From positions 1-64,000 of the forward strand of contig JAUYSH010000101.1 in the NCBI GenBank assembly GCA_030696455.1: a stretch of DNA of 64,000 nucleotides, read 5' to 3'. Source of the stretch: Elusimicrobiota bacterium. GTDB taxonomy: Bacteria > Elusimicrobiota > Elusimicrobia > UBA1565 > UBA9628. This document shows positions 549 to 38,537 of this stretch, piece after piece. The stretch's first letter is position 1. Each line of letters opens with the position of its first letter. A program made the translations under genes and the position numbers. Under the pieces are notes generated by a model. It saw only the letters and a program-made list of their open reading frames with translations, searched no databases and had not been told where the DNA came from.

Positions 549-1702
549 CCCGGGCCGGGCGCCTCTCGCCGACGGCGGAAGGCGCCGCCCTCGCCTTGGC
601 GGCGGTCGCGTCGCGGATCGTCTTTGTCGCCGCCGCGGCGAGCGCGCTCGGAGTGGATTGGCGCGATCTCGCGCTGCGCTACGACGGCCACGTCTACCTC
701 CGCATCGCCAAGACCTTGCCCGCGCTGTACGTCTCGGAGCAAGGTCCGCTTCTGACGGGCTGGTTCCCGCTCTATCCCGTGTTGATCCGCGCCGGGGGCG
801 CGCTGACCGGAGACCTGCGGGTAGCGGCCATAATGGTCTCGCTCGCCGCCTCCGCCGCGGCGGTCCTGCTCTTCCACCGGCTCGCGGCCCGCTTTTCCTC
901 GCGCCCAGGACTCGCGGCCGCGGTCCTCGCCGTGTTCCCGCCGATGTGGCTCGTCTGCGGCGGGCTCGCCTTCGCGGAGCCTGTTCTCGTCTGCGCGGCG
1001 GTCGCGGCCGTTCTGGCGGCCGTCGAGGATCGGCCTTGGACCTGCGGGGCGGCGGCCGCGGCCGCGGCGCTGTCCCAGAAATCGGGCGCGCTGGTCGTGG
1101 TGATCGCGGCGCTCGTCGTCTGGAGCCGCCGAAGCCGCCTCGACGGTCGCTGGCTCGCCGCCCTGGCTCTCGCGCCCCTGGCCGCCGCCGCCCTGCAGGG
1201 CTATCTGTGGCTGACCTTCGGCGACCCGCTGATCAACCTCCGCGTTCAACGCGAGATCTTCGGAGGCTCCTTGTTCAGCCTTCCCTTCGCGGGCTTCGTG
1301 AAAGGCCTGCTCGAGCCGTCGGCCTTCGGCGGACCCTGGCGCCGCGCCGCGATCGCCGCGAGCGGCCTCTTCTATCTCGGGGTCGCCGCGGCCGCCTGGC
1401 GCGGCCGGACGGAGGAGCGGCGGCCTCTGCTGCTCTGGCTCGGGGTCGTTCTGGCTTTCTTCTTCTGCCTCGGCGGATTCTGGGCGTTCCATTCCCTTCC
1501 CCGCTTCCTTCTCCTCGGGGCGCCGGCGGTCATCCTGCTCGCCGAGCCTTATCTGCCCCGCGGACGCGGGCTGCTCGCGGCGGCGCCGCTCGCCCTGCTC
1601 CCGTTCTTCGTCGGCCTCGTGGAGGTCGCGCAGGCGGACGCCTTCATGCGGCGCGCCTGGGGCGAGAGCTACTTTTCGCGAGCCTCGAGCGAACTCCGTT
1701 GA
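545..1702 (+). CDS. Polytopic PIG-V-like mannosyltransferase family protein
   Basis: A 385-residue, very hydrophobic protein with about ten membrane segments. Near the N-terminus it has RYDGHVYLRIA followed by GWFPLYPVLIR. This matches the bacterial PIG-V-like (GT-C fold) pattern of an R-x-D-x-x-x-Y-x-x-I-A segment and an F-P-L-Y-P loop. Such enzymes transfer sugars from polyprenyl-phosphate donors on the outer face of the inner membrane. It starts at GTG 545, overlapping the stop of the preceding gene, and ends in a TTGA overlap with the next glycosyltransferase. The two are therefore probably made together for a cell-surface glycan or lipid-linked sugar. The substrate is not inferable. Confidence 0.65.
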   Translation: MTRAGRLSPTAEGAALALAAVASRIVFVAAAASALGVDWRDLALRYDGHVYLRIAKTLPALYVSEQGPLLTGWFPLYPVLIRAGGALTGDLRVAAIMVSLAASAAAVLLFHRLAARFSSRPGLAAAVLAVFPPMWLVCGGLAFAEPVLVCAAVAAVLAAVEDRPWTCGAAAAAAALSQKSGALVVVIAALVVWSRRSRLDGRWLAALALAPLAAAALQGYLWLTFGDPLINLRVQREIFGGSLFSLPFAGFVKGLLEPSAFGGPWRRAAIAASGLFYLGVAAAAWRGRTEERRPLLLWLGVVLAFFFCLGGFWAFHSLPRFLLLGAPAVILLAEPYLPRGRGLLAAAPLALLPFFVGLVEVAQADAFMRRAWGESYFSRASSELR

Positions 1703-3237
1703 AGCCGCGGGACCGTGAGCTGGCGATCGTCGTTTCGGCGGCGCTGCTGCTCGCGCTGCCTTTCCTCGGCAAGGGCTTCCAGGTCGACGAGCCTTTCTTC
1801 CTCGATCGCGCCCGCGAACTGGTATCCGGCGCGAGCTGGACCCCCCGCGCCTGGTCGGACTACAACAACAATCCGCCGATGATCCTCTGGCTCCTGGCCG
1901 CCGCCACGCGGCTGGCGGGCGAGAGCGAGGCGGCCTTGCGCGCGCTGTTCCTGCCGCTCGACGCGCTCGCGGCCGCTTCCCTGTATCTTCTGTTCGCTCG
2001 ATTCCTCAAGAAGCCGCTGGCGTGGGCGCTGCTCGCGGTGCTCTCGCCCGCCTACGCGCTGAACATGGGGCACCTCATGGCGGAGAAGCCGGCGATGGCC
2101 TTCGGGGCCGCCGCGGTGTACGCCTTGGTCCGGGGCGCCGACGAGCGGCGCAGGGGCTGGCTCGCCGCCTCGGCCGCGCTGCTGTCGGCCGCGGTCATGT
2201 CGAAGTACGCCGCGGTCGCGCTCGTCCCGGCCGCGGCGTGGTACCTGCGGCGGCGCGGCTTCGGCGCCGGCTCGCTCTCGGGCTATCTCGCGTTGGCGGG
2301 CCTCGCGCCGGGCGCCTATCTTCTGGCGAACACCTTGCAGGGCGGCGTCGTGTTGAGCGGGGCCGCGGCGACCATGGCGGGCGCCTCATCGGGGGCGTGG
2401 GCGAGCGGCCCTCATCGTGTGCGCTCGCTGCTGGCTTTTTTCGGAGGGCTCGCGGTCCTGCCGATGTTCTGGCCGCTGACGGCGAGGCGCGGAGCCCTGA
2501 TCGCGTCGGCGGCCGGGGCCGCGCTCGTCTTCTCGCCGTGGCTTGATTCAGCCTCCGTGCGCCCGCTCGACCGCGCGTTCGGGGCCTGGCTCGCGGCGGG
2601 GTCGCTGGCCGCCGTCTTCGCGCTCGCCTCGTCGCCGCGCGGGCGCGGGCGGGACCTATGGCTGCCCTGGCTGGTCGCCTCGACGGCCGTCGCCGCGGCG
2701 TACTGGTCGGTGATGGCGCGCGTCGTGCTGTTCGCGATTCCGCCTCTGATCCTCGCGCTCGGCGAAACCTTCGAGGCCCGCGCGGAGCGGGGGGCCGCCC
2801 GCCTGCCGTGGGCCGGGGCGGCCGCCGCGGCGTGCCTGTCGCTGTCCCTGGGCTGGGTCGACTTCCGCTACGCCGGCGCGCAGAAGGATCTCGCCTCGGA
2901 GCTTGCGTCGCGGGGCCGCCCGGTCTGGTGCGCGGCCAAGCTCGGCCTACGCCATTACCTGCTCCGCGCGGGCGCGCGGCCGCTCGATACCGAGGCCGAC
3001 TGGGAGAGCGTCCGTCCGGGCGAGCTCGTCGTGTTCGCGAAGACCACCACGAACTTCTCGCCGGCTCGCCCGCGCCGCGTGAACGCCGAGCGGCGTCTGG
3101 TCGTCAGCGTCGTGCCGCTGCGCCTGATCAGCGGTTTCGGCGGCGAGGGCGGCTTCTACTCCAATATCAGCGGATTCCTGCCGTTCTCGCCGAGCACTGA
3201 GCCGGTCGAGGAATTCACGGTCGTCGAGCCGCTGTAG
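1699..3237 (+). CDS. GT39/ArnT-like polytopic glycosyltransferase
   Basis: A 512-residue membrane protein with an N-terminal helix, then a periplasmic loop carrying VDEPFFLDRARELV and YNNNPPMILWLLA. These correspond to the acidic D-E motif and the N/H-P-P loop of GT-C glycosyltransferases of the dolichyl-phosphate-mannose/ArnT type. Repeated Ala/Leu-rich segments give 10-12 helices, followed by a soluble C-terminal part. The start is TTG 1699 in a TTGA overlap with the previous stop. The 3' end overlaps the convergent mtgA gene by 82 nt. Acceptor and donor are unknown. Confidence 0.65.
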   Translation: MKPRDRELAIVVSAALLLALPFLGKGFQVDEPFFLDRARELVSGASWTPRAWSDYNNNPPMILWLLAAATRLAGESEAALRALFLPLDALAAASLYLLFARFLKKPLAWALLAVLSPAYALNMGHLMAEKPAMAFGAAAVYALVRGADERRRGWLAASAALLSAAVMSKYAAVALVPAAAWYLRRRGFGAGSLSGYLALAGLAPGAYLLANTLQGGVVLSGAAATMAGASSGAWASGPHRVRSLLAFFGGLAVLPMFWPLTARRGALIASAAGAALVFSPWLDSASVRPLDRAFGAWLAAGSLAAVFALASSPRGRGRDLWLPWLVASTAVAAAYWSVMARVVLFAIPPLILALGETFEARAERGAARLPWAGAAAAACLSLSLGWVDFRYAGAQKDLASELASRGRPVWCAAKLGLRHYLLRAGARPLDTEADWESVRPGELVVFAKTTTNFSPARPRRVNAERRLVVSVVPLRLISGFGGEGGFYSNISGFLPFSPSTEPVEEFTVVEPL

Positions 3238-4330: not shown

Positions 4331-5011
4331 ATGCCGTACTACCTCTACGAGGGGGGAAAGGCCGTGGGGCCTTTCGAGCCTTCCGAGCTCGTGCTTCGAT
4401 CGGGATTTCACAGGGACACCTTGGTCTTCCCGGCGGGCGCGACGACGCAGGACGCTTGGAGGCCGGCGGCGAGCTTTCCCGATGTGGCGCGGGCGTTGGA
4501 CCCCGACTCGAGCGGGATATTCCTGACCGCGGCGCCGGCGCGCGTCGCGGCCCCGGCGCCGCCCTCGCCCTCGGCGGCGGCGCCGCCGGCGGCTTCCCCC
4601 GAGGAGGCGGGCCCGGCCCTGGCCGCTCCGGGCGACAAGCTGATCCTCGTCGTCGACGATGACGAGACCGTGCGCAGCTTCCTCGAGATGAGCGCGAGCC
4701 TGCAGGGGTTCCGCGTGCTGACGGCGGTCGACGGCCTCGACGCGGGCGTCCAGCTGGAGGCGCAGACGCCGGATCTGATCATCACCGACCTCATGATGCC
4801 GGGGCAAGGCGGCTACGAGTTCCTTCGTTCGCTGCAGGGCTCGTCGAACGGGCGTATACCCGTCTTCATCGTCACGGGCAGCGCGCTCGACGACTCGACG
4901 ATCAAGATGATCCGGGCGGAGGCGAACGTCGTCGAGTTCGTTTCTAAGCCGATCAAGATGGCCAAGTTCGTCTCGGCCCTCCACAAGACGCTGAAGACGG
5001 CTCCGCGCTGA
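4331..5011 (+). CDS. GYF_2-like domain fused to a response-regulator receiver
   Basis: Residues 1-55 (YYLYEGGKAVGPFEPSEL ... DAWRPAASFPDV) look like a GYF_2-type domain, a small module often found in bacterial membrane or signalling proteins. An Ala/Pro linker leads to a receiver domain at about residues 98-222. This has the acidic DDDE pocket, the phospho-acceptor Asp in ITDLMMP, the VTG switch Thr and the SKP lysine. There is no output domain beyond the GYF module. The receiver shares an unusual tail, (M)IRxExNVxxFxxKP, with the two receivers at 6931 and 7335, marking them as local paralogues. The gene is followed 35 nt later by structured repeat copy A. Confidence 0.82.
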   Translation: MPYYLYEGGKAVGPFEPSELVLRSGFHRDTLVFPAGATTQDAWRPAASFPDVARALDPDSSGIFLTAAPARVAAPAPPSPSAAAPPAASPEEAGPALAAPGDKLILVVDDDETVRSFLEMSASLQGFRVLTAVDGLDAGVQLEAQTPDLIITDLMMPGQGGYEFLRSLQGSSNGRIPVFIVTGSALDDSTIKMIRAEANVVEFVSKPIKMAKFVSALHKTLKTAPR

Positions 5012-5046
5012 ACGCCGCGACGGCCCGGCGAAGGACTTATGACGGC

Positions 5047-5170
5047 CCGGGGGGCGGTATCATGTCCTTCGGGGCCGCTCGGCATTGAGCCTCGCTTGGG
5101 GTCGACCGCGATCGACGGAGCAAACATCGCGGCGACCCCACACCCCTCAGGACATGATACCGCCCGCCGG
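5047..5170 (+). repeat. Structured repeat element, copy A (possible 3' UTR RNA)
   Basis: The outer stem pairs 5052-5068 with 5149-5165 (17 bp, perfect) and continues across a conserved TC/TC internal loop into GGGG 5071-5074 with CCCC 5143-5146. Inside are a small hairpin GGC-ATTGA-GCC (5081-5091) and a stem GGGGTCG-A-CCGCGAT (5098-5112) pairing with ATCGCGG-CGACCCC (5126-5139), a 7 bp + one-base bulge + 7 bp helix with a 13 nt loop. The 80 nt core 5069-5148 is identical to copy B at 22706-22785. It lies just 3' of the GYF-receiver gene, in the same direction. No T-tract follows, so it is not a simple intrinsic terminator. The gene-free gap 5012-5450 holds only this copy, copy C and a 130 nt spacer without a convincing ORF. 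Confidence 0.85.
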
Positions 5171-5302
5171 CCCTTATGAAGCTCATCAAGGAATCGCCCA
5201 TCCCGCTTCCTCGCCGTTGCGCGCCCGCGAAGAAGCCCATCGCCGAAGGCGATAAGCCGTTGCCTACGCCGTGCGCCCGCGAGCCTGACCCGACGGTTCA
5301 TC

Positions 5303-5427
5303 GGGGAGGAGGATCGACCCTCGCCGGGGCGTAGGGTCCGCCGCGACAAGGGTTCTTCATACGTCGCGGACGGACCCGAGAGTGAGGTCAATCCGAACGC
5401 CCCCGGCGAGGGTCGATCCTCCTCCCC
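5303..5427 (-). repeat. Structured repeat element, copy C (diverged, opposite strand)
   Basis: Outer arms 5303-5331 and 5398-5427 form a roughly 29 bp stem with a single bulged G. Read on the minus strand, the interior matches copies A/B in order: CGG-ATTGA-CC hairpin, then GGGTCCG-T-CCGCGAC pairing with GTCGCGG-CGGACCC around a 15 nt loop. The architecture (7 bp, one-base bulge, 7 bp) is the same as in A and B although several base pairs have changed in both strands together. It sits 23 nt beyond the stop of the minus-strand TPR gene, again in sense with the upstream gene. Confidence 0.8.
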
Positions 5428-5450
5428 GGCCCGCATCGACGTTCCTGGTT

Positions 5451-5843
5451 TTAGGCGACGCGGCGGAGGAGCTTGAGGCGGGCCTCGAAGGAGTGGCGCT
5501 CGGAGAGGGTGGCCTCCGGCCGCTCGAGGAGGGCTTTGAGGATATCCCGGCTCTCGTCCTTGCGGCCCAGGCGCATCAGGTAGTCGGACTTGCGGAAGGC
5601 CGCCTGAAACCGCCGGTGCGGCGTCTCCAGGGCGGCGGCGCGGTCGTACGCGGCGAGCGCCCGGTCGGTCTCGCCGAGGCGTTCATGCGCCGCTGCGGCC
5701 TGGCTCAGCAGGCGCGCGCGGTCCAGATCGGGGAGGTCGGAGCCGGCGAGCGCCAGGAGCTCCTCCAGGAGGGCGCGATCGTCGCCGGCGGAGCCGAGCT
5801 TGTCGATCGCCTCGACGCGGCCGCGGAATTCATCGAAATCCAT
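5451..5843 (-). CDS. Small TPR-repeat protein
   Basis: A 130-residue cytoplasmic protein with tetratricopeptide-like helices, e.g. LSQAAAAHERLGETDRALAA (residues ~45-65) and the following RFQAAFRKSDYLMRLGRKDE. No signal peptide is present. TATAAT on the minus strand (5852-5857) lies 8 nt before the ATG, suggesting a nearly leaderless transcript. Function is unknown; TPR units usually mediate protein contacts. It converges on the GYF-receiver gene across the gap that holds repeat copies A and C. Confidence 0.75.
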   Translation of the reverse strand: MDFDEFRGRVEAIDKLGSAGDDRALLEELLALAGSDLPDLDRARLLSQAAAAHERLGETDRALAAYDRAAALETPHRRFQAAFRKSDYLMRLGRKDESRDILKALLERPEATLSERHSFEARLKLLRRVA

Positions 5844-16068: not shown

Positions 16069-16133
16069 GGTGTCAGGCCTAACGTTAGTGACAGTGTTGA
16101 AGAAATACCGTCATTACCGTTAGGCCTGACACC
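16069..16133. repeat. REP-like palindrome, copy 1
   Basis: Arms GGTGTCAGGCCTAACG (16069-16084) and its exact complement (16118-16133) form a 16 bp stem. It continues inward with a few mismatches and G-T pairs to a small loop near 16100. The terminal GTGTCAGGCCT is shared with the palindrome at 38473-38537 and, as a half site, at 22643. It lies between purB and the RlmI-like gene and may also terminate transcription. Confidence 0.85.
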
Positions 16134-22642: not shown

Positions 22643-22660
22643 GGTGTCAGGCATATCGTT
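22643..22660 (+). repeat. Half REP-like sequence
   Basis: GGTGTCAGGC at 22643-22652 matches the terminal arm of the palindromes at 16069 and 38473, but no complementary second arm is found. A short internal hairpin GCAT..CG/CGATGC may remain. It looks like a decayed or single REP unit. Confidence 0.5.
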
Positions 22661-22683: not shown

Positions 22684-22807
22684 AGGGGCGGCGGGTTGAT
22701 ATCCGTCGGGGCCGCTCGGCATTGAGCCTCGCTTGGGGTCGACCGCGATCGACGGAGCAAACATCGCGGCGACCCCACACCCCTCCGGACATCATCCCGC
22801 CACCCCT
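22684..22807 (+). repeat. Structured repeat element, copy B
   Basis: The core 22706-22785 is identical in all 80 positions to copy A. Outer arms 22690-22705 and 22786-22801 pair in 14 of 16 positions and extend by AGGGG (22684-22688) with CCCCT (22803-22807). Compared with copy A, three outer-stem pairs have changed on both sides while keeping complementarity (T-A to G-C, C-G to G-C, T-A to G-C). It lies 43 nt after the terminator of subtilase 2, in the same orientation, and ends 35 nt before the lipid kinase start. Confidence 0.85.
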
Positions 22808-38472: not shown

Positions 38473-38537
38473 GTGCCAGGCCTGCAAATTCGTTAAATTC
38501 GTTGAGGTCAAATTTAACGAATTTGCAGGCCTGACAC
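38473..38537. repeat. REP-like palindrome, copy 2
   Basis: Arms 38473-38499 and 38511-38537 pair over 27 bp with a single C-A mismatch and an 11 nt loop. The outer AGGCCTG(A)CAC arm is shared with the palindrome at 16069, while the inner AT-rich part differs. It stands between dnaJ and rsmE and could also act as a terminator. Confidence 0.85.

Follow-up and report, generated by a model that had tools for sequence, protein, structure and literature searches.

Three stretches of the window, the 64,000-nucleotide piece of DNA analyzed here (contig C22 of a 4.01 Mb source genome, G000, in 147 contigs), are members of an undescribed repeat family, paired hairpins of roughly 380 bases that insert between genes in one branch of the Elusimicrobiota. 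With a little better than even confidence, the feature can be read as a mobile DNA element that is non-autonomous and has the build of a giant REPIN, in which two units of about 120-150 nt face each other across a short spacer. Two of the stretches, 5047-5170 and 5303-5427, together form one doublet (5047-5427), a point that the original prediction had missed, and the insertion that carries them ends at about 5012 and 5443. Table 1 shows the features of the doublet, its surroundings and the solo unit.

Table 1. Element copies in the window, with their parts and the genes beside the doublet.
Feature	Position	Strand	Remarks
Response-regulator-like gene, left of the doublet	4331..5011	+	
Left terminal segment of the insertion, ACGCCGCGACGGCCCGGCGAAGGACTTATGACGGC	5012..5046	+	Absent from relatives (gene junction in G003, G008, G016, G015); exact end base uncertain
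Unit A, a branched hairpin with arms at 5049-5068 and at 5149-5168 around an 80-nt core (5069-5148)	5047..5170	+	Some 20 similar copies in the source genome
Mini-hairpin, conserved; loop ATTGA, internal mismatch TC/TC (GCTCGGC-ATTGA-GCCTCGC)	5077..5095	+	
Second hairpin of unit A (7 bp, 1-nt bulge, 7 bp)	5098..5139	+	
Spacer between units A and B, 132 bp	5171..5302	+	Similar spacer in a G006 doublet
Unit B, homologous to unit A, inverted	5303..5427	-	Six more own-genome copies, 96-99% identity over the matched part
Right terminal segment, GGCCCGCATCGACGTT	5428..5443	+	Reverse complement AACGTCGATGCGGGCC recurs, slightly changed, outside other B units
Convergent gene, right of the doublet	5451..5843	-	
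Solo unit, 80-nt core shared with unit A, arms diverged	22684..22807	+	Decayed remnants at the same place in G016 and G008

Structure and spread of the units

In each unit the two arms pair over about 19-20 bp, the outer edge of this stem being sharp, and enclose a conserved three-way junction of a mini-hairpin and a bulged second hairpin. Read from the outside in, the order is a foot, the stem, a 2-nt internal mismatch, a GGGG/CCCC block, the mini-hairpin and the second hairpin (7 bp, bulge, 7 bp). The mini-hairpin loop is ATTGA or ATCGA in 66 of 85 units, and the TC/TC mismatch is often present. The foot of B-type units is AACGTYGATGCGGGCC; of the GTAG and CGTC tags of REPs, it contains CGTC in some copies, away from the stem. 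The three window copies fold much more stably than their dinucleotide shuffles whether treated as ssDNA (z -7.9, -6.0 and -10.2) or as RNA (z -8.1, -6.3 and -9.9).

The original prediction described an identical core in unit A and the solo unit, and the longest block that they share is indeed exactly 80 nt (5069-5148 and 22706-22785). Unit B likewise holds its parts in the same order as the other two copies. The further statement that the arms had diverged but remained complementary was correct for three pairs, in which both bases changed without loss of pairing (T-A/G-C, C-G/G-C, T-A/G-C), but it left out two one-sided changes in the 22684 copy that break pairs, A-T to T-T and G-C to A-C.

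Across the family, pairwise identity between units averages 45% in the arms versus 69% in the mini-hairpin block. Arm pairs are 96.5% Watson-Crick overall (142 units), and every one of the 142 units is at least 75% Watson-Crick over 18 bp. In a MAFFT alignment of 29 distinct copies, 160 cells were double-changed, where shuffles gave 47 +/- 6 and slid registers 22-37, and 26 pairs of the structure carried double changes. The covariation score on the same alignment was 0.379 versus 0.128 when shuffled and at most 0.086 in slid registers, so that covariation goes beyond chance, as would be looked for in a structured RNA. An Rfam search of the window returned one tRNA only and no match to the units. 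The proposal of a conserved folded structure, here outside the Rfam families, is supported; it had left both RNA and ssDNA open.

The further copies expected from the original prediction were found in number. Unit A as a query gave 21 matches in its own genome and unit B gave 23, many of the latter being palindromic arms that matched themselves, and near-identical B copies were located at unrelated loci. A covariance model built from 29 copies gave 37 matches in the own genome and matches in 15 of 19 same-genus genomes, amongst them G012 (27), G013 (8) and G014 (3). Contigs C9, C97, C101 and C139 of the source MAG break inside or beside units, and the true copy number is thus probably higher. 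A pattern scan of named genomes matched four Elusimicrobiota MAG contigs. Outside the genus, members become sparse: two models detected them in further genera of the family, in a different family of the order (G037) and in a different family of the class (G308). The G037 and G308 members differ in their loop sequences and are assigned by model score and fold. The core is of the same kind in other genera and up to class level. Searches of phage collections, plasmid collections and viral contigs for the element gave no match.

Amongst 155 units in the fetched loci, 52 close pairs were identified, and all 52 were convergent with a spacing of 14-162 bp, which is the inverted doublet with short spacer of REPs and REPINs. 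A pair in another genus (G022, L246) is likewise convergent. Several doublets fold across both units, and REPINs also fold across their two units.

A few loci showed other arrangements. At a contig end of the source genome (C12, L024 1235-1742), unit A, unit B and the reverse complement of the spacer form an array that looks mirror-symmetric about the palindromic unit B. The second unit of a doublet in G010 (L141, about 1188-1231) is without its entire core, and a bare arm palindrome is left. In G308, two same-strand units (L250 902-1019 and 1501-1618) lie within one long ORF (787-3084, minus strand), contrary to the extragenic rule. In G019, a facing pair (L252 1659-1949) has a 463 bp spacer with a 96-aa open frame without a Pfam match, which may be cargo or may have arisen by chance.

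Insertion and loss at orthologous sites

In G003, G008, G016 and G015, the genes that flank the window doublet are separated only by a short junction of a few to about 20 bp that lacks the units. A second doublet lies upstream of another conserved gene in G000, G016 and G013, and G006 and G007 lack it. At the 22684 site, G016 and G008 hold the decayed remnants listed in Table 1 and G001 holds none. At the M16 peptidase locus, units flank the gene on both sides in G003, G010, G013 and G016, either as doublets or as solos, and in G000 one unit is largely deleted. Across species, both arms of orthologous units vary in sequence, yet they still pair. Altogether, the empty sites, the remnants and the shared orthologous copies indicate that some insertions are recent and others old. 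At the C75 locus, G000 has a unit of a type that is common at other places in that genome, and the orthologues in G016 and G013 belong to different types; units may have been replaced or converted there.

The mobile element reading is based on the empty sites of both doublets, on the dispersal of the family with its fixed convergent architecture, arm pairing despite drift and a core kept up to class level, and on the remnants, the one-unit losses at orthologous sites and the folding across units. Occupied and empty sites, together with doublets that hold no transposase gene, agree with what is expected of a mobile, non-autonomous REP/REPIN-type repeat. Against this reading are the lack of a transposase inside or beside the elements, the lack of a clear target-site duplication at the two insertion sites that were compared with empty sites, and the many copies that occupy orthologous sites in several species. 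The latter imply that the elements are old, and such copies may be retained for a host function.

Insertion between genes, dispersal, the fixed doublet orientation, the conserved core and arms that drift yet stay complementary were all shown here. Beyond these, we propose that the units would function while single-stranded and folded, as could happen on the lagging strand, and that a recombinase supplied in trans would read the junction core and ask nothing of the arms but pairing. Arm complementarity would be maintained by template switching and by the purging of broken copies, and solo units would mostly be doublets that lost their partner. We tentatively raise the possibility, to which we give somewhat less than one chance in three in our own judgment, of a new kind of ssDNA mobile element, moved by a putative recombinase of Elusimicrobiota that reads a conserved three-way DNA junction and demands complementarity of the arms, not their sequence, leaving the arms free to drift.

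DNA-level structure versus an RNA element

An alternative explanation, which we regard as unlikely, is that the units are structured RNA elements transcribed with the upstream gene and serving as its 3' end, as mRNA stabilizers, as terminators or as a small RNA. The strong covariation and the conserved loop agree with this explanation, as does the placement of the units. According to gene calls from a simple codon-usage script, which are rough, units lie a median of 33 nt past the stop codon and, in 35 of 46 tandem settings, nearer the 3' end of the upstream gene; they are also over-represented between convergent genes (odds ratio 4.8). Placement at 3' ends fits an RNA role but also REP elements, since REPs, which are thought to be mobile DNA, share it (PMC3733652). 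In tandem settings, 12 solo units were in sense and 6 in antisense orientation, a difference that is not significant and weak as a test of a 3' RNA. Also against an RNA role are the ordinary-looking terminator that precedes the solo unit of the window and the lack of a match in Rfam.

The composition of the arms provides further information. G-T pairs account for 0.5% of arm pairs on the unit's own strand, with 13 G-T versus 41 A-C cells, or 23 versus 36 when collapsed by genome (p 0.12). G-U pairs are thus not favored over A-C pairs as in the stems of a structured RNA, both being rare. An RNA from the opposite strand would reverse the raw ratio, and the safe reading is therefore that wobble is rare, which does not by itself exclude RNA. 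Given the rarity of G-U wobble and its lack of excess over A-C, a structure at the DNA level fits better as an explanation of the units than an RNA gene.

The covariation in the original prediction is real but weaker as evidence for RNA function than had been claimed, since DNA hairpins repaired by template switching can acquire paired double changes without selection on RNA (PMC8794818). The retained mismatches, bulge and loop are unlike the outcome of simple palindrome repair, and we infer that the shape of the core is under selection or purging. With the window doublet being an inserted element that close relatives lack, arms that are nearly pure Watson-Crick and a solo orientation test that was weak, the proposal of a new RNA class for the units is not supported.

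Related repeats and candidate mobilizing enzymes

By working principle, the doublet is nearest to REPINs, whose inverted pairs replicate as one unit and leave singlets as remnants (PMC3116915). Shared with REPIN/BIME repeats are the inverted doublet as the dispersing unit, the short spacer, the solo remnants, the extragenic position 3' of genes and an imperfect hairpin with conserved mismatches. Membership fails because of unit size, branched form and the lack of RAYT linkage: REPs are simple hairpins of 20-50 nt, tagged GTAG and mobilized by RAYT, whereas the units here measure about 120-150 nt, form a three-way junction and have arms of free sequence. CGTC-tagged REPs (Di Nocera 2013, PMC3733652) also occur mostly as inverted (head-to-head) dimers and have no dedicated transposase known, but their 8-9 bp stems and 4-5 nt loops make them far smaller, and they are unbranched. 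RAYT TIRtrons, with self-complementary TIRs, resemble the family in having long self-complementary repeats in close pairs, but theirs flank RAYT genes (PMC3733652). Integron attC sites, marked by R'/R'' core boxes and a cassette array with IntI, were considered for shape only; the units here are isolated intergenic doublets without a cassette array. To our knowledge, a three-way junction and an inverted doublet are not features of ERIC. ERIC/RU repeats are intergenic, MITE-like and of similar length (127 bp), but they are known from enterobacteria and are set apart from the present units by description (PMC2229807, PMC2759123).

No description of such repeats in Elusimicrobiota was found in the literature searched, in which subscription journals were largely outside coverage. 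As far as searched, the family is undescribed and can be classed as a large, branched form of palindromic doublet. With it, the REP/REPIN type of element would be extended to branched units several times larger, in a phylum without such a repeat in that literature. The many copies at known orthologous sites offer a natural test of whether selection or template switching keeps the arms complementary, a question that matters for how far covariation can prove a function in RNA, and the family poses a concrete search for its mobilizing enzyme.

One candidate source of that enzyme is a cut-and-paste transposon with a DDE transposase, of which the element would be a deletion derivative (a MITE) with its self-complementary ends as terminal inverted repeats. 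The AACG...CGTT-type termini of the doublet, its size of about 430 bp and its non-autonomous nature suit such an origin. Each end is itself a branched palindrome, solo units are common, the two insertion sites gave no recognizable target-site duplication, and no longer relative with a transposase and the same ends was found in the fetched loci, which derive from fragmented MAGs; we regard this origin as quite unlikely. Clustering of the genes neighboring units in these loci showed no common gene resembling a transposase, inside or beside the elements, and only conserved housekeeping-type neighborhoods, which revealed the orthologous sites. Facing units 3 kb apart were considered as an autonomous copy with a gene between them, and this was rejected, the intervening genes being ordinary (M16 peptidase, GlmS).

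RAYT-like (Y1) transposase genes were identified in 14 of 19 congeners. No unit lies within 1.5 kb of any of 31 Y1 loci, and the units therefore do not flank the RAYT gene as the repeats of REPs and REPINs do. Instead, about 20 of the 31 loci have GTGTCAGGC...GCCTGACAC, or a closely related form, on their flanks, which makes this repeat the likely RAYT substrate of the genus. G012, G013 and G014, all MAGs, have units without a Y1 match. Element and Y1 counts correlate (rho 0.52), but each count tracks genome size comparably. RAYT linkage of the units was thus rejected as not supported, and a giant REPIN moved by the RAYT transposases of these genomes, which the REPIN-like doublet architecture (PMC3116915), the frequency of Y1 genes and the count correlation favor, is very unlikely.

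Two hairpins of the window, at 16070-16132 and 38473-38537, have GTGTCAGGC/GCCTGACAC-type ends like those at most RAYT genes of the genus and, judging from these ends, are probably genuine RAYT-type repeats of this genome. A lone GTGTCAGGC is also present at 22644, beside the solo unit.
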